A stretch of DNA of 42,347 nucleotides, taken from the IMG/VR virus record IMGVR_UViG_3300012926_000001, positions 1 through 42,347 of that record; one strand, written 5' to 3'. Every line of letters begins with the position of its first letter. The stretch's first letter is position 1. Position numbers and translations under genes: made by a program. Below the pieces are notes generated by a model. It had not been told where the DNA came from, searched no databases, and saw nothing but the letters and a program-made list of their open reading frames with translations. Source of the DNA: a virus. This document shows positions 29,246 to 41,004 of the stretch, piece after piece.

Positions 29246-31096
29246 TTAGGAATAAAATCCAATCGCCGAGAAGTAGGTGACATTGGGCGTATTGACGCTC
29301 GTCTCCTTGATCGATACGCCACCGATGTTGGCGGGCAACGAGCCAAACAGGCTCAAGGGCATGTTGTGCACCGTGAACTGCGAATTGCTCAAACCGAAAT
29401 CGTGCTGCGTGGTCGACGATGAGGTCGCAACCGCATTGCCCGTCGCCACTCCTGCGGTATCGTAGAACTGCACCTGGAAGCCGTAGCCGAGCTTGGTGGG
29501 CATCACGCCGAAAGTGAGGGTGGTGTAGGGGGTTAAGGTGAAACTCGGCGTGGTGAGCTTCAGCGTGCCATTAACGACGGTTGCCGAGAGCTTGCAGCCT
29601 GTCATGGTCTTTTGCGCAGGCGCCGAGGCCCAGGGCTGACTGCCGACCGTCTGCGAGCTCGAGAGCGTAAAGGTCGGGAACGTGCCGCTGACGATCGTCG
29701 GTGCCGCACTGCCGCCAAGATTCGATTGCCAGCAGGCGGTATCGCCGATGTTGATCGAGCCAGAGATCAGGGCGCTCACGCTCATCGTCGTGCCAGAACA
29801 ACTCGCGGTGAAGCGCGATGCAGCATTGGCTGGGTTGTTGAGCGAATACAGACCCGCGTTGATCGACCCGGGGAGCCAAGTATAATCCGCGGTGGCATTG
29901 ACGGAGGCATCCGTCCAGCCGGCCGCTGGCGCCCCTGTTCCCTGAAAGGCCCAGGCGAGATTGCCGCCAATCAGCGTTACATTGTCAACGGCGTAGGTGA
30001 TGTTATTGCCGTTCGAGCCGACCGCGAACTTGTAGAAGTTCTTCGCCCCCAGCATCGCCAAACTCGAAAGCGGCGCCGTCACCGTGGTCCAGGTGTTGGC
30101 CGGGATCGCCAGGGCGGCCGAGCCCTGGGTGACGCTGGTCGACCCGCCGATGTCATTACCCGTCGCGCGGCTGTAGTGCGAACTCACATACATCGAGCTT
30201 GGGGTCGGTGTATAGAGCGAGAAGCTCAGCTTGGTGTACGGGCTGTCATCAAAGCCATTCGGCGGAATGGTGTTCCACATGGAACCTGGCTGCCAGCCGC
30301 CGCCGAAGGCGCTATTGGTGGCCACCTGCAGGCTTACCGTCGAGCCGGGGCATACCTGGACGGTCGAATTGCGCGTGATGGTCGCGCTGAAGGATAGATC
30401 CGTGCTCACCGGGAACTGCGGCGCCAAGGTACCATTGGCGTAGAGCACGAAATTGCCGCTCGCCGCGGGAATCACCGAATTCGACGCGCCCGAGGGCAAG
30501 CTCGGCCCAATCGCGTTGTTGGCCACCGCTTTGAAGCTGTAGGACGTGCCATTGACCAGGCCATTGACTGCGACCGGGCTCGAAGCGCCGGTGCCGCTGA
30601 TATTGCCCGGCGTCGAGGTGATGGTATAGCTCGTAATTGGGCTACCACCGGTCCCATTCGGCGTGAAGGTGACGCTCGCGCTCGCGTTGCCCGCGGTTGC
30701 GGTGCCGATGGTGGGAGCGACCGGTACATCGGCCGGGGTCACGCTGTTCGAGACGCCCGACTCCAAGCTGTTGCCGACCGCATTGGTCGCATGCACCGTG
30801 AAGCTGTAGGCCACCCCATTGGTGAGGCCGGAAACCGGGACCGGACTTGCCGCAGCCGTGCCGGTGAGGCCCCCAGGGCTTGCGGTTGCGGTAAAGCCCA
30901 TGATCGGCGAGCCGCCCGTCGCATTTGGGGTAAAACTCACCGAGGCGCTCGCATTGCCAGCGGTTGCGGTCCCAATCGTCGGAGCGACCGGCCTGGTCGG
31001 CACCGCGGCCGCTCCCTCGAGCACCATGAGCGTGACTCCATCCTCCTTGACGATGGAGCCAGAGCTGCCCTCGAGCTTCATCCGCGTGAGGGTCAT
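29246..31096 (-). CDS. Virion appendage protein with two fibronectin type III domains
   Basis: A 616-residue protein starting at ATG 31096, which overlaps the previous stop (ATGA). Residues 30-125 and 126-210 are two near-identical Fn3 modules (each with G-T-A-T-A-G-N-A-S-A-S-V and Y-S-F-T-V or Y-S-F-K-A). The remaining 400 residues are beta-rich with carbohydrate-binding-like stretches (W-T-T-V-T-A-P-L, Y-K-F-A-V-G). It is probably exposed on the virion and binds cell-surface sugars. No catalytic motif seen. Confidence 0.75.
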   Translation of the reverse strand: MTLTRMKLEGSSGSIVKEDGVTLMVLEGAAAVPTRPVAPTIGTATAGNASASVSFTPNATGGSPIMGFTATASPGGLTGTAAASPVPVSGLTNGVAYSFTVHATNAVGNSLESGVSNSVTPADVPVAPTIGTATAGNASASVTFTPNGTGGSPITSYTITSTPGNISGTGASSPVAVNGLVNGTSYSFKAVANNAIGPSLPSGASNSVIPAASGNFVLYANGTLAPQFPVSTDLSFSATITRNSTVQVCPGSTVSLQVATNSAFGGGWQPGSMWNTIPPNGFDDSPYTKLSFSLYTPTPSSMYVSSHYSRATGNDIGGSTSVTQGSAALAIPANTWTTVTAPLSSLAMLGAKNFYKFAVGSNGNNITYAVDNVTLIGGNLAWAFQGTGAPAAGWTDASVNATADYTWLPGSINAGLYSLNNPANAASRFTASCSGTTMSVSALISGSINIGDTACWQSNLGGSAAPTIVSGTFPTFTLSSSQTVGSQPWASAPAQKTMTGCKLSATVVNGTLKLTTPSFTLTPYTTLTFGVMPTKLGYGFQVQFYDTAGVATGNAVATSSSTTQHDFGLSNSQFTVHNMPLSLFGSLPANIGGVSIKETSVNTPNVTYFSAIGFYS

Positions 31097-33702
31097 CCGG
31101 CGCCTTGCGAACTTGAGCAACGCACCGAGACAATCACCAACCCAGTGCCATCAAAGCCGGTGCCCCCCGTCGCCGTCATGCGAATGGTGCGGATCGTCCC
31201 GGCATTGGTCGTGACCGGGCCCGCATTGGCAATCGTGGTACTGACCGAAGGACTGATGGTATTGGCAAGCGCGGCTGGGGTGGCTGACCAGCCTAATGCC
31301 CAACTGGTCAAGCCTCCGGAAGTTCCCAAAGCGGTGGCGATGGTGGCGGTGAAAAGATCGGGATTGTGGGTCGCCGGAACCGCAATCGGCAGATCAAAGG
31401 TCAAGCCCGCCGGCGGCGTTCCACTCCACACTTGCGACCATTTCTCTTCCACCGCACCATTCTGGCAAATGGACTCAAGGCCATTGCTCAAGTCCATGAT
31501 CCGGATGCGATTACCAATCGCCTTGCCGCCCTGCATGCTCAACATGCGCTGCTTGTAGCCGGAATAATTGGCCCCGAGGCCGTTCTGTGCGGTCGCGTTC
31601 ACGAAGTTGGCGATCGTCCCGGCGACGGTCTGCGCGCCGGTGGTTGCGTTCGCGTAGGAAACCGAGCCAGGAGCCGAGGCGGTCACCGTGAAGGTACCGT
31701 TGTAGCCCGCGGGGGTTACGCCTGCGATCGTGACCTGCGTACCGACGGTGGCGATACCGGAAGTCGTCGCGAAAGTAATCGTCGCGGTCGAGCCCGTTCC
31801 GGAAGCTCCCATGGTCGCGGTTGCTGCCAGAGCACCTGCGCCCGTAGCAGCCCAAGTGCAAGTCGTTGCTCCATTGGTCAAGGTCGCATAGCGCACCTGA
31901 TTGTCGTTGAATTGCAAGAGGTACAGGCCGGTCGAATGCGTCCAGTTCGAAGCGAGCGCCGTGCTCGTGCCCGTGGGTGGGGTTGCGAACACGACTGGAT
32001 AAACCCTAAAGCCATGCACCCGGACATTCACATCGGAGTTGGTCATCACCGCGCTGCCCTGCAAGGAGGCGGAGCCGCGGAAGGTCTGATCACTCGAATA
32101 CGTATTGAAGTAATAATCCGCATCGATCGTCATGAAATTGCCGGCGATGCTAAAGCCGGGTGAACCGGTGCTTGGCCAATCGGGCAGATATACCTTCACG
32201 CCCTTAAAATCACAGTTCTGATTGTTGTTGTTGCCCATGTCGGCAATCGGGAACACGGTGGGCGCCGGATTCAAATCGCGCGCCACCAAGTTCTCGATGG
32301 TCAGATAGTTGTACGGCGCCCCTGAGGGGAAGCGCAGGCCCCAAATCGGCAGACCGTTCGAGGTGACGACCGATGAGTCGTACACGAATGACAGATTTTT
32401 CATGGTGCCATACCCGTTCGGGTAATTGTTCGTCAGGCAGTCCATGAAGCCATCGGGCCGCAGGCTCGTATAACCATCGATCACGGTGTTCAAACACGGC
32501 GCCATTTTCAAAGACACCATGCTGCCGCTCGTAGTGGAGCGGCGGGTCGCGCCGCCCACGTAAATGCCATAGTCAAAGCAGTTCACCACCTCGCGCGTCC
32601 AGCCGGTGAAGGAGGGGTCAGGGTCTGAGATGTAGAGCAAGTGCGGCGGGGGAAACCAGCTCAAACTGCCACCCGCTCCCGTTCCATCCGAGTGCTGCAG
32701 ATCCGAATACCGATAACCCTTCAATCCGTGAATGCGCACCCCACCGCGGCAGAAGATGCCCATATAGCAGCCGTCCAGGCGCAAATTGATGATGTCGACG
32801 TCAGTGGGCAGCACCGCAGTCGAGGCGTTAATTGCTTGGTTATTATTAGTGACCAAGGTGTTGGGCGCCCACTGCTCATCGAAGGACATGCCGAACGGAA
32901 TGAAATTGGCAGCATTCGCGCCTTGCGGCACATAGATGCTCACGTTCTCGAAGCGCCCGCGCGCCAAGGCCCCTTGACAGCGGAAGATCGCCGAAGGATT
33001 CCCATGCCCCGTGTAGAGGCAACTGCCGCTCCCGGTGAACGTATTGCCGAAGTTGGCAATCATGTCGTTCTTCATGATGACATCGTTGAAATGCGCGGTC
33101 AGTGCTGGATACGGCGCTGCTAGATCATCATACGGCGCAGCGCCCACGTATTTGACGTTCAGATTGCGAATGACAAAATCGGTGGTGTGCAGGAGGATGA
33201 AGGCAGGGATGTAGGAATTATCGACGATCAGTTCGCCCGAAGGGGTGCCGACGATGTTCGTTCCAGTGCGCAGGAAGATGCACTTCGAGTCATCGATGCC
33301 GATGGTGAGCTTGCATTTGCAGTCGACGATGAGCGGCTTGCCGGTCGAGAGCGAGAGCGCGTAGGCTGCGGTAAAGCCGGCCCAGCTATCGGTGACTCCC
33401 GTGGTATCGATATTCGGCTGCGTCGACAAGGTGATTTGAGAAATGAAGCCAAAGCGCCGGCCTAAGAACGTGACGGGCGCAATGACGTTCCCAGCGCTCT
33501 GCACCAAAGGGAAGGTTTCGGTGGCATCCAAGGGCACCGCGGGGGTGAACTGACTGAAAGCGCTGCTGAGCAGCGGCGCCCCAAGACCCGCAATGGAGGC
33601 ATCGAGCGCGGCAAACTTCGAATTGATGGCCGTGCCACCAACGCGCGCCTTATCACCATCTTTGGTGCCGACACCAGTACCTACATTGACGACATCGCTC
33701 AT
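31093..33702 (-). CDS. Large tailspike-like beta-helix protein
   Basis: An 869-residue protein. The first 60 residues (M-S-D-V-V-N-V-G-T-G-V-G-T-K-D-G-D) are a virion-attachment type sequence. The body (100-560) has Asn/Asp/Gly-rich coils typical of parallel beta-helix spikes. Around 640-710 lies a short Ig-like module (G-T-Q-V-T-I-A-G-V-T-P-A-G-Y-N-G-T-F), and the C-terminus is beta-rich and probably trimerises. It is a second receptor-binding protein in addition to 5337-7439. Confidence 0.78.
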   Translation of the reverse strand: MSDVVNVGTGVGTKDGDKARVGGTAINSKFAALDASIAGLGAPLLSSAFSQFTPAVPLDATETFPLVQSAGNVIAPVTFLGRRFGFISQITLSTQPNIDTTGVTDSWAGFTAAYALSLSTGKPLIVDCKCKLTIGIDDSKCIFLRTGTNIVGTPSGELIVDNSYIPAFILLHTTDFVIRNLNVKYVGAAPYDDLAAPYPALTAHFNDVIMKNDMIANFGNTFTGSGSCLYTGHGNPSAIFRCQGALARGRFENVSIYVPQGANAANFIPFGMSFDEQWAPNTLVTNNNQAINASTAVLPTDVDIINLRLDGCYMGIFCRGGVRIHGLKGYRYSDLQHSDGTGAGGSLSWFPPPHLLYISDPDPSFTGWTREVVNCFDYGIYVGGATRRSTTSGSMVSLKMAPCLNTVIDGYTSLRPDGFMDCLTNNYPNGYGTMKNLSFVYDSSVVTSNGLPIWGLRFPSGAPYNYLTIENLVARDLNPAPTVFPIADMGNNNNQNCDFKGVKVYLPDWPSTGSPGFSIAGNFMTIDADYYFNTYSSDQTFRGSASLQGSAVMTNSDVNVRVHGFRVYPVVFATPPTGTSTALASNWTHSTGLYLLQFNDNQVRYATLTNGATTCTWAATGAGALAATATMGASGTGSTATITFATTSGIATVGTQVTIAGVTPAGYNGTFTVTASAPGSVSYANATTGAQTVAGTIANFVNATAQNGLGANYSGYKQRMLSMQGGKAIGNRIRIMDLSNGLESICQNGAVEEKWSQVWSGTPPAGLTFDLPIAVPATHNPDLFTATIATALGTSGGLTSWALGWSATPAALANTISPSVSTTIANAGPVTTNAGTIRTIRMTATGGTGFDGTGLVIVSVRCSSSQGAG

Positions 33703-33773: not shown

Positions 33774-34259
33774 TTACGCTTTCCCGACTGCGGCTAGAAA
33801 GTCGGCATAGGCCGGCCCTTTCTGCTTGAACATTCGATAAAATTTGGCCTTGCGCTGCTGACCATCCAAAATCAATGATTTGGCGTCGACATGTGTCCAT
33901 GTCAATTTGGGTCTGCCAGGGTGTCCGTTACGGATCAGCACGTCCTTGCAGACCGCCTTGAAGTCATCGAAGTCATCAGCGTCGACCTTGAACCATTCGA
34001 GCGTGTGATGCCACGCGGTGGCCGCGATCTGCATCTGCGACTCGACGCTTGAGGCTTTGTCCTTGGAACACAAATCAACCCACGCGAGCGTGAGTGGTGT
34101 CACCGGATTGCCGTTGCGGATCTCCCCGAAGCGCTTCACCGGATTCTGCGACATTCCGATCTTGACGTAGAGCGGTCCGTCTCCATCTCGACAAATCAGG
34201 GTGTAAACGAAGTAACCGCCTAACACACCACTGGAATTGTAGAGCCGCAAGTTTGGCAT
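33774..34259 (-). CDS. GIY-YIG family nuclease
   Basis: A 161-residue protein. The G-Y-F-V-Y-T-L ... Y-V-K-I-G pair (residues 15-36) is the GIY-YIG signature, followed by R-F-G-E-I-R-N-G-N-P with the catalytic-type Arg. The C-terminal half is a basic DNA-binding type region. Such free-standing nucleases are common selfish genes in phages. It sits between the Q-like regulator and the terminator before the late genes. Confidence 0.85.
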   Translation of the reverse strand: MPNLRLYNSSGVLGGYFVYTLICRDGDGPLYVKIGMSQNPVKRFGEIRNGNPVTPLTLAWVDLCSKDKASSVESQMQIAATAWHHTLEWFKVDADDFDDFKAVCKDVLIRNGHPGRPKLTWTHVDAKSLILDGQQRKAKFYRMFKQKGPAYADFLAAVGKA

Positions 34260-34729: not shown

Positions 34730-34753
34730 AGATTCATCTCCCTCACGTGAAAA

Positions 34754-34831
34754 CCAAACCACACCCAACCGAAGCGGACCTTACCAACGCCAGACCCCAC
34801 CCGACATCACCACAGCTCGCCAGACCGCGCC
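34754..34831 (-). repeat. Pentamer array B (GGYNN on minus strand, 16 units)
   Basis: On the plus strand the doublet CC (or rarely GC/CA) recurs every five bases from 34754 to 34831, with one six-base unit near 34790 shifting the phase by one. All 16 doublets are preceded by a purine. On the minus strand this reads GGY followed by two free bases. The array begins a few bases after the stop of the gene at 34836-35444. Confidence 0.9.
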
Positions 34832-34835
34832 CGAA

Positions 34836-35444
34836 TCAAAGCCTTTCGAAATTTGTCAAATCGAAGCGCCCATAGGTGGGGCGGAAATCACCCACACCGA
34901 CCAACTTTCCCGCCATTCCCAGTACTTCACGGAAGAACGCTGGATCGACGTATTCCGGCAGGTTGATCATGAAATCCATGTCAGCCGTCCAGCCGTGTCG
35001 CATTGCCGGCCGCACCCGAGTGATGCCATTGCGCTGGACCGTGACGCGGCGGCGATCCTCATAGTCCCACTGCTTAGTGCCCAAAGAAGCGAGCGGCGTC
35101 ATGCTGATAACCGCGGCCTTGAACAAATCCATAGCGCTTTTGCGCGGACTGCGCGGGTCCTGGCGGAACTTCGCGGCCACGATGATTGAGCCGCGAACGT
35201 ACTCGCCTGGCAGGCAGAGAAATTGATTCTCATTGCGCCAAACGTAACTTTCTATATTATCGGTCTTCTTCGCGGCGCTTCCTTTGCGGGCCGCGGACTT
35301 CTCTGCTACTGCTTCGTTGTTCCATCGATGAAAGAGCATATCGGACGTGCCGGTCAGCTGAACCCTGACCGTGTACGGTTCGCTCAACTCAATCTGTTCC
35401 TTTGCGCCATTCGACACTGGCGCCAATTTCACTACTGCATTCAT
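34836..35444 (-). CDS. RAMP/Cas7-like protein of unknown function
   Basis: A 202-residue protein. The first predicted strand (Y-T-V-R-V-Q-L-T-G-T-S-D-M-L-F-H-R-W, residues 24-41) and the late motif G-V-G-D-F-R-P-T-Y-G-R-F (183-194) resemble the beta-strand and glycine-rich loop of RAMP-superfamily (Cas7-type) RNA-binding proteins. Related phage proteins share the G-x-G-D-x-R-P-x-x-G-x-F end. GAGGG precedes the ATG. Two pentamer arrays with the same GGYNN rule lie directly upstream and downstream. RNA or ssDNA binding is an inference from motif and context. Confidence 0.6.
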   Translation of the reverse strand: MNAVVKLAPVSNGAKEQIELSEPYTVRVQLTGTSDMLFHRWNNEAVAEKSAARKGSAAKKTDNIESYVWRNENQFLCLPGEYVRGSIIVAAKFRQDPRSPRKSAMDLFKAAVISMTPLASLGTKQWDYEDRRRVTVQRNGITRVRPAMRHGWTADMDFMINLPEYVDPAFFREVLGMAGKLVGVGDFRPTYGRFDLTNFERL

Positions 35445-35470
35445 AAAAATCCCTCGTTTGTTAGTAAAAA

Positions 35471-35592
35471 CCTTGCCCTACCACACCGGACCCTGCCTCG
35501 CCCGACCTCACCACGCCATGCCTAACCCGTCCCGACCATGCCCTGCTATGCCCCGGCAAACCGGGCCGCACCTAGCCCTACCGGGCCGGACC
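35471..35592 (-). repeat. Pentamer array A (GGYNN on minus strand, 25 units)
   Basis: On the plus strand a CC doublet falls at every fifth base from 35471 to 35591 without a single phase break: 25 doublets, 23 exact CC, one CT, one GC. Each is preceded by a purine except one. The other two bases of each unit vary freely. On the minus (transcribed) strand this is (GGYNN) x25, placed between the VRR-NUC gene, whose last codons it includes, and the start of the RAMP-like gene 26 bases beyond. Confidence 0.95.
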
Positions 35593-35997
35593 AAATAAAT
35601 AATTCTCAATTGCTACCTTCGATTCATCAAAACCCTTGCAAATTGCAGCGGCATAACCCACCGCAATCATCTTGGCCTGAAATTCTTTTTGCTCCTCGCT
35701 CGTCACCGACAGTTCAATCCTTTTCATTTCTAGCCAGAGGCCCGCATATCGAAATGTGGGCAATGCCAAAATATAATCGCTCGCACCGACTTTGAATCCG
35801 GCCCGCTTCCAAGAATTCATGGTGATCGCGCGCGCTCTAGCGTCACCGATCAACTTCACGCGGTTAGGGATCATCACCAAATAATCCGAGAGTCGAAGGC
35901 CCTTGTGCCGCACCAACGATGCCCATTGGATCAAATTTGCGCACTCGTCATCCTCGGTGGGCAGTGGGGCTTTGAGCTTGAAAACTGGATTTCTCAT
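35578..35997 (-). CDS. VRR-NUC domain nuclease
   Basis: A 139-residue protein starting at ATG 35997, overlapping the upstream stop (ATGA). Residues 75-139 show the PD-(D/E)xK-type VRR-NUC pattern: G-A-S-D-Y-I-L-A-L-P with the Asp, then L-W-L-E-M-K with the Glu and Lys, then S-E-E-Q-K-E-F and a final G-F-D-E-S. Such single-domain phage enzymes are thought to resolve branched DNA. The last four codons and stop are made of array A units. Confidence 0.85.
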   Translation of the reverse strand: MRNPVFKLKAPLPTEDDECANLIQWASLVRHKGLRLSDYLVMIPNRVKLIGDARARAITMNSWKRAGFKVGASDYILALPTFRYAGLWLEMKRIELSVTSEEQKEFQAKMIAVGYAAAICKGFDESKVAIENYLFGPAR

Positions 35998-36188
35998 GAT
36001 CCAGCACACAGCCAAAGGATCGCCCACAGCACGGCCAATGCGACCAAGGGACCGACGAACAGGAACACAACCGCCAGCGGTGATACGCTCCAGACGAACC
36101 AAGTCAAAGCGATCACCGCAGCGCCGATAATGGCCAATGCCAGCCAGGTGAGCGTGCGGTCATCGGCTTTGAGGTGGAAGGCTTTCAC
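35994..36188 (-). CDS. Small two-helix membrane protein
   Basis: A 64-residue protein starting with GTG at 36188 (GTGA overlap). After 13 polar residues come two hydrophobic helices (about 14-33 and 36-61). The longer frame to 36308 overlaps the HTH gene and is not needed. Possibly an exclusion or regulatory membrane peptide; no family recognised. Confidence 0.6.
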   Translation of the reverse strand: MKAFHLKADDRTLTWLALAIIGAAVIALTWFVWSVSPLAVVFLFVGPLVALAVLWAILWLCAGS

Positions 36189-39523: not shown

Positions 39524-39678
39524 TGAAGATCAAAACGAATTTCGATCCGAAGCCTATCCCGATGCGCCAGTTCGATTGGGCCGCATGGGACGACGATACG
39601 CTCGATTACGATTCGCGCATGGGCTGGGGCGCAACGGAAGAGCAGGCAATAGCAGATTTACAGGAGAAGATGGAATGA
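39523..39678 (+). CDS. Conserved 51-residue phage protein
   Basis: This short gene fills the space before the ERF gene. Its product has K-P-I-P-M-R-Q-F-D-W-A-A-W-D-D-D-T and ends G-W-G-A-T-E-E-Q-A-I-A-D-L, a small conserved family in many siphoviruses and podoviruses, often near recombination genes. Its stop overlaps the ERF start. Confidence 0.8.
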   Translation: MKIKTNFDPKPIPMRQFDWAAWDDDTLDYDSRMGWGATEEQAIADLQEKME

Positions 39679-40541
39679 ATGCAGTAGTCACAACCGAACA
39701 GCCGGCCGATTCCATGATGAGCATGATCGAGCGAGCCGCGCGCGATCCTGCGGTCGATATAGACAAGCTGGAGCGGCTTTTCGCATTGCGCGAGCGGATG
39801 GTCGCGGAGGAGAAGAAGACCGCCTATAACGCCGCTATGTCGATTGTACAGGCCAAGATCAAGCCTGTGTACCGCGACGCGATGAACCAATCTACTAATT
39901 CAGCCTACGCGCGCTTAGAGACCATCTCGGATGCCATCACGCCGATCTACACGGCTGAGGGGTTCTCGCTTTCATTCGACACCGCCGATTCACCGAAGGC
40001 CGATCACATCCGCATTGTCTGCGAGGTAATGCATTCGGCCGGCCACTCGCAGTTCAAGCACTTCGACCTGGCGCTCGATAACGTTGGGCTCAAGGGCAAC
40101 CCGAATAAGACCGCGATTCAGGCGAGCGGTTCAACCATCTCATATGGCCGTCGCTACCTAAAATTGATGGTATTCGATGTGGTGCTCACGAACGAGGACA
40201 ACGACGGGCAAGCGCCGGAGCCGAAGATCCACGAGACCAAGGGCGACTCGCTCAATGTCGTTCCCATCGAGGAAGCGCAACCCTGGGCCGACAAGATGCT
40301 CGCAGCATTGGCCCTGGTGAACACAGAGAAGGTTGAGCCTGGCGTGCAGCTATTGCGCACCGAACGGATGCGAGCGATGAGGGTTCTGGACCTGCACGAT
40401 GAAATCAAGGGCAATAATGACCTGTACATCGCTGCGAGTCATCTCTTGCCTTCGAAGGCGCGCAGTGCTTGGAAGAAGTACAAAGCGATGGCCGAAGAGA
40501 TGCAGGAACAAGAAATGGCGAGCGATCCCCGCAATGGGTGA
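39675..40541 (+). CDS. erf: ERF-family single-strand annealing protein
   Basis: A 288-residue protein starting at ATG 39675, with CAGGAGAAG a few bases upstream. The core has Y-A-R-L-E-T-I-S-D-A-I-T-P-I-Y, F-S-L-S-F-D-T and G-S-T-I-S-Y-G-R-R-Y, the ERF signature. Family members form rings on ssDNA and anneal complementary strands for recombination-dependent replication or circularisation. The C-terminal third is a variable helical region. It is followed by the NinB-like and Ref-like genes, making a recombination module. Confidence 0.88.
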   Translation: MNAVVTTEQPADSMMSMIERAARDPAVDIDKLERLFALRERMVAEEKKTAYNAAMSIVQAKIKPVYRDAMNQSTNSAYARLETISDAITPIYTAEGFSLSFDTADSPKADHIRIVCEVMHSAGHSQFKHFDLALDNVGLKGNPNKTAIQASGSTISYGRRYLKLMVFDVVLTNEDNDGQAPEPKIHETKGDSLNVVPIEEAQPWADKMLAALALVNTEKVEPGVQLLRTERMRAMRVLDLHDEIKGNNDLYIAASHLLPSKARSAWKKYKAMAEEMQEQEMASDPRNG

Positions 40542-41004
40542 GCAGTCCTTCGTCCTGCCGCGCCTGCTCTCGCGTGAGCGTGCGATCGAGCGCATCGCCT
40601 CGGTCCTCAGGGGTCTATCGCAGGACCGCGCCTGGCGCGTCTCCGTGGCCGAGCACAAGCCATCGAGGAGTGATGCGCAGTGCCGCTATTTGAATGGCGT
40701 GTGCTACAAGATTTTGGGCGATGCGATCGGCTATGAGCGGGACGAGGTGAGCGAGTTTCTGTGCGGCACGTACTTTGGCTGGAAGACCAAGAAGGTACCG
40801 AAGAAGCCGAGTAACCCGATGGGACTGGAGAGCGTACCGGTGCGCACCACCACGACCAACGCCGATGGCAAACGCTCGGTCCTGGGCAAGCTCGAATTCG
40901 CCGATTACGTCGCGTTCTGCCAGCGCTTCGCCGCTTCCAAGGGCGTGTTCATTCCTGATCCTGACCCGGATTACGCGGCTCACCGCGAAGAGAAAGCGGC
41001 GTGA
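40534..41004 (+). CDS. NinB-like recombination protein
   Basis: A 156-residue protein starting at ATG 40534 inside the end of erf. R-S-D-A-Q-C-R-Y-L-N-G-V, Y-E-R-D-E-V-S-E-F-L-C and the late E-F-A-D-Y-V-A-F-C-Q-R-F segment match NinB/Orf-type recombination mediators. In lambda this type of protein loads recombinase onto SSB-coated DNA. The match is by motif only. Confidence 0.7.
   Translation: MGEQSFVLPRLLSRERAIERIASVLRGLSQDRAWRVSVAEHKPSRSDAQCRYLNGVCYKILGDAIGYERDEVSEFLCGTYFGWKTKKVPKKPSNPMGLESVPVRTTTTNADGKRSVLGKLEFADYVAFCQRFAASKGVFIPDPDPDYAAHREEKAA

Follow-up and report, generated by a model that had tools for sequence, protein, structure and literature searches.

A probable VIPR locus in a tailed phage, with guides that decode to motifs of AlpA-type regulators and VRR-NUC nucleases

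We found that a RAMP gene bracketed by two arrays of GGYNN units, in the genome of a tailed phage, very probably represents a VIPR (Viral Interference Programmable Repeat) system with targets in competing mobile elements (probability of roughly 0.92 for the whole explanation, targets included). VIPR (SUSP1, Pseudomonas fulva prophage) was described in April 2026 as a phage RAMP with vrRNAs of 9-16 YNNGG repeats, in which the NN pairs recognise DNA with one base skipped, leading to transcriptional repression; its targets lie mainly in satellites and prophages (PMC13142463). The present locus was assigned to VIPR because its sequence-testable features mostly fit that publication. A preliminary description, made from the DNA letters, had presented the locus as a candidate new system, a claim superseded by the SUSP1 work. 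Its central reading otherwise stood up on every point open to checking. Among the roles it had considered was that of a guide in which GGY is fixed and two bases per unit are free, and this option agrees with what was experimentally shown for the homologous SUSP1 Vipr (PMC13142463).

VIPR has been in the literature for only months, and the locus puts its code to the test on a phage sequence that was picked out with no awareness of that publication. What is new here is the set of decoded targets: the array spells known protein motifs and has exact DNA matches in a regulator of mobile elements. The locus is a worked example of how guides are chosen and, apparently, of how self-targeting is avoided. 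For comparing guide contents across phages, about 100 more loci are available (among L002-L140).

Results

Two GGYNN arrays flank the vipr gene

The window, by which we mean the whole 42,347-base virus record that was analysed, contains terminase, portal, major head protein and scaffold genes, as expected of a system found mainly in phage or prophage genomes. Its vipr gene (34836-35444, minus strand) encodes a 202-aa Cas7/Csm3-type RAMP protein of phrog_4652, with the position, strand and length previously given. Upstream of the gene, on the same strand, an array of 25 units (35468-35592) runs in a single unbroken phase, with an exact GG in 23/25 units and a pyrimidine in 24/25, and the vipr start codon lies 23 nt past its end. 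The downstream array (34751-34831, minus strand) directly follows the vipr stop codon and comprises 16 units (GG exact in 13/16, pyrimidine in 16/16), divided into two runs by a slip of one base between unit 9 and unit 10. The tandem GGY/NN repeats on both sides of vipr that typify VIPR are thus present, as 25 + 16 units. The totals reported earlier, 41 units on both sides of the gene and on its strand, with 36 of 41 exact doublets and 40 of 41 third-position pyrimidines, were reproduced exactly; the five-base step ascribed to all of them stood for the upstream array, and in the downstream array it holds only within each of the two runs.

The best 12 consecutive units scored 36/36 and the best 24 scored 69/72, as compared with maxima of 29/36 and 47/72 when the window was shuffled 200 times under a first-order Markov model; in the remaining window outside the arrays, the top 12-unit score was 24/36. 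Promoter and terminator scans at the arrays gave nothing above chance, and a search for a structured 3' tail behind each array was negative (folding z of -0.28 and 0.55). Rfam returned no match at the gathering score, its sole match being sub-threshold and elsewhere.

The Vipr protein is predicted to be a Cas7-type RAMP

The 202-aa product matched phrog_4652 (9.5e-17), a family of unknown function in PHROGs, and had no match in Pfam. Its family profile matched PDB entry 36pp_D, 'SUSP1 Vipr protein', at 2.4e-38, and the window protein as a single sequence did so at 3.8e-4, the latter match spanning the late GVGDFRPxxGRF stretch to which the preliminary description had drawn attention. The AlphaFold model (91 aligned sequences) reached a pLDDT of 93.6, and the solved structures most similar to it were RAMP subunits of the Cas7/Csm3 type from type III and VII complexes, at Z about 12. 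The structure prediction and Cas7 comparison that had been called for therefore bear out a RAMP/Cas7-like product: as modelled, the window protein is a Cas7-type RAMP, and together with the 36pp_D matches this fold agrees with the ancestral RAMP that characterises Vipr.

The likeness to class 1 CRISPR Cas7 (Csm3, the backbone of types III-A and VII) extends over about 160 residues of the fold, whereas sequence identity is only about 10-15%. Unlike class 1 systems, the window locus has neither a CRISPR array nor a cas operon: no interspersed repeat-spacer array was visible around vipr, a tandem repeat scan revealed short repeats elsewhere only, and the repeat unit of the window is five bases long, with three of them fixed.

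Arrays accompany vipr homologues across phages

A protein search retrieved 19 relatives, 18 of which had a same-strand array within 150 nt. The preliminary description had proposed looking for a periodic GG signal near homologues, and had regarded homologues consistently devoid of pentamer arrays as evidence against its reading; arrays are in fact kept beside the homologues. The reverse search, with ten exact GGYNN units as the query, yielded at least 120 loci. Among the 120 loci listed for the array pattern alone, 86 encode a vipr homologue, which in 73 of these 86 lies within 150 nt of an array; among the matches listed, the nearest array was on the strand of the gene in 110 cases and on the opposite strand in 2. 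The usual distance between gene and array is 4-15 nt past the stop codon or 20-30 nt ahead of the start. Of 109 control loci (0.92 Mb), which had been collected for unrelated purposes, one carried an array; this one (L214:4-201) is located at a contig end and is probably another VIPR locus.

No neighbouring gene was common to the clade within 3 kb of vipr, and no vap, an accessory gene that some VIPR types may lack, was found beside it, in 28 clade loci. Likewise, none of seven nearby window genes tested recurs at other vipr loci, including a locus with 87% identity (L002), and vipr and its arrays therefore appear to move as a unit. In phage DSL-LC04 (OR003939.1) the homologue is annotated as a helix-turn-helix regulator and the array precedes the gene; within the arrays of this phage (L141:7660-7980), one stretch lies between the arms of a long inverted repeat, TTCTTAGTGGGGC ... 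GCCCCACTAAGAA. At L067:7605-9162 and L109:1965-3536, arrays some 300 GGYNN units long (about 1.5 kb) were seen near a vipr homologue.

Guide B decodes to an AlpA motif

From the first unit to the last, the NN pairs of the upstream array run CC CC AG TA GC CC TT GG AT AG AT CG CG, followed by TA AT GT GA CG GA AG CC GT AG AA TT. Under the published rule of one skipped base (PMC13142463), and in the codon frame of the opposite strand, this series decodes to (K/N)(F/L)LTGLSRST(I/M)YRR(I/M)L(I/M)PNGAYLGG, a string that seems to hold at least two abutting guides, which we denote A and B. No good self-target exists in the window, the best candidates matching 15/22 and 16/24 bases.

Guide B (units 11-22; 35483-35542, minus strand) decodes to TGLSRSTIYRRM, pointing to AlpA-family regulators. 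The first half of the decoded array corresponds to the AlpA signature: the 25-residue peptide matched Phage_AlpA in Pfam at E = 0.016, and the reversed peptide matched nothing. Scanning IMG/VR with units 12-19 gave 9 matches, one of which (L148) extends over units 11-22 with 24/24 bases and lies in an AlpA gene adjoining a P4-type integrase. When 84,980 genomes were scanned with units 12-22, 14 matches came up, all in Paraburkholderia or Caballeronia; every one of the 14 extends to units 11-22 (24/24 bases) and is mismatched on both sides. About 0.03 matches would be expected for 22 fixed bases at uniform base composition, although this is no clean probability, as the pattern was chosen after L148 had been seen. 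In one of these 14 (L165), the matched gene is an AlpA gene (1.7e-19) near VirB4/TrbE-type and transglycosylase genes, a neighbourhood that suggests a conjugative element.

In a sample of the bacterial family, 10 of 398 genomes matched guide B with up to 2 mismatches, and the pattern read backwards matched 0/398. With a skip of 0 or 2 nt, guide B had no match in 12 genomes of the Paraburkholderia group, a comparison that is circular and carries little weight because these genomes were preselected by a match with the 1-nt skip. The genome matches do not prove a Paraburkholderia host, because AlpA is a common motif and the pattern was chosen post hoc. Through guide B and its AlpA matches, the locus displays a further VIPR trait, an NN code that addresses DNA with a 1-nt skip and often points to rival mobile elements.

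Guide A matches VRR-NUC genes and may avoid the phage's own copy

Guide A (units 1-11; 35538-35592, minus strand) decodes to LIPNGAYLGG, as found in VRR-NUC-type nucleases. Units 2-9 had 10 viral matches, 6 of them antisense and in frame in VRR-NUC genes, and units 1-8 had 6, a single one of which fell in a VRR-NUC gene (L190; Pfam VRR_NUC, 8.1e-10). No match covers all eleven units, the candidate targets matching 8-9 contiguous units only. A unit-reversed control had 3 matches, none in a VRR-NUC gene, and guide A had no match with 3 mismatches in the 12 genomes of the Paraburkholderia group mentioned above. On these matches, guide A is probably aimed at the VRR-NUC gene of related phages.

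The phage has a VRR-NUC-like gene of its own (35578-36102, minus strand; phrog_824, 7.7e-26), the 3' end of which (FGPAR, stop) sits inside the first units of the upstream array. Its product is 52% identical to that of L159 and reads MIPNRVKLIG where relatives read MIPNGAYLG. This altered site is an apparent instance of self-avoidance, as judged from a single case that could also be drift.

NN codes in the downstream array and in other loci

Nine units of the downstream array had no viral match, and eight other units had 67 matches, which fell in a wide range of genes and in no case exceeded nine units. Eight units of this array (34751-34831) agree in 14/16 bases with an unrelated VIPR locus (L139:600-1458), the maximum in shuffles being 13.

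Two other loci with far-diverged Vipr proteins (L007:2455-3192 and L021:3968-4577) share nine consecutive NN units as exact reverse complements, as if aimed at one DNA site from opposite strands; none occurred in shuffles. These shared units are an independent sign that NN pairs name DNA sites. The decoded stretch, VKTTQRYA(H/Q), looks like the part of tyrosine recombinases that surrounds the catalytic tyrosine; in Pfam the peptide had no integrase match. The decoded peptide of L067 gave a weak HTH_17 match (E = 0.014). An all-against-all search for targets within the locus set (2.6 Mb, both strands) was rejected as a source of candidates, the 1-nt skip giving no excess over other skips or shuffles; the array targets probably lie outside that set.

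Discussion

Taken as a VIPR system, the locus would work as follows. The arrays would be transcribed into RNA on the vipr coding strand, and Vipr subunits, by extension from SUSP1 and the shared fold, would coat this RNA, each subunit gripping the GGY of one GGYNN unit and leaving its NN exposed. The NN pairs may then find their sites in double-stranded DNA, passing over one target base for each unit, as in the published rule, which fits here, such that a guide would read codon positions 1 and 2. Bound Vipr could block transcription of the target, as was shown for SUSP1. Guide B would act against an AlpA-type regulator of integrative elements, and guide A probably targets VRR-NUC in related phages; by analogy, repression of competing mobile elements is the most likely function of the system.

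The locus resembles SUSP1 VIPR in its homologous RAMP, in the GGY/NN arrays that lie beside the gene on its strand, in its phage genome, in an NN code whose skipped base falls at the codon wobble position, and in targets within rival mobile elements. It differs in that neither a conserved accessory gene near vipr, in 28 members of its clade, nor a structured tail was found, and in that the guides abut in one continuous array; a structured 3' vrRNA tail was described for the SUSP1 clade (PMC13142463). We tentatively raise the possibility, to which we give clearly less than even odds, that this clade is a minimal form of VIPR, with one gene, no accessory protein or structured tail, abutting guides that lack processing signals, guides placed on conserved codons of shared genes, and a changed copy of the target in the phage itself.

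The decoy, autoregulatory, ssDNA-replication and G-quadruplex roles offered in the preliminary description all leave the decoding of NN to known gene motifs unexplained. TRAP, the trp RNA-binding attenuation protein, binds about 11 GAG-NN repeats in leader RNAs, reading triplets at a five-base spacing with two free bases between them that carry no information. Its fold is different from that of Vipr, yet the similar spacing, with one array 23 nt before the vipr start and the other directly after the stop, would suit a RAMP that binds GGYNN RNA solely as autoregulation or decoy, the NN pairs being meaningless. We consider this very unlikely, since the NN pairs are non-random and decode to motifs of AlpA and VRR-NUC genes that are matched exactly at the DNA level, since L007 and L021 have a nine-unit reverse-complement code in common, and since arrays of up to 1.5 kb go far beyond autoregulatory need. 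That the array is instead a DNA feature, serving ssDNA binding in replication or forming G-quadruplexes beside an incidental RAMP gene, is hardly credible: the strand is G-rich and recombination genes (Erf, NinB, VRR-NUC) are nearby, but the array tracks the RAMP gene and its strand family-wide across unrelated neighbourhoods, and folding of the array strand did not exceed that of shuffled sequences (z of -0.55, in a folding model that does not cover G-quadruplexes).

A different objection accepts VIPR and attributes the AlpA and VRR-NUC targets to a coincidence of conserved motifs and codon bias. The post hoc choice of patterns, the lack of a full-length match for guide A and the E of 0.016 for the decoded AlpA peptide speak for it; nevertheless, we regard it as improbable, as 24 fixed bases lead to one gene family with mismatches beginning exactly outside units 11-22 in 14/14 genome matches, the backwards guide-B and unit-reversed guide-A controls brought up no counterpart in AlpA or VRR-NUC genes, and the phage's own VRR-NUC copy differs at the guide-A site.

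Phage context

Along half of its length, the terminase resembles that of F116-like Pseudomonas phages at 53%; even the best matches of the portal are below 31% identity. On the plus strand, 39576-41004 holds recombination genes, first one for an Erf-type annealing protein and then one for a NinB-like protein. Downstream of the VIPR locus, a 161-aa protein (33774-34259) has weak MUG113/T5orf172 (GIY-YIG-like) matches, and an 869-aa protein (31093-33702) that matches a phage pectate-lyase family is a likely tail spike.
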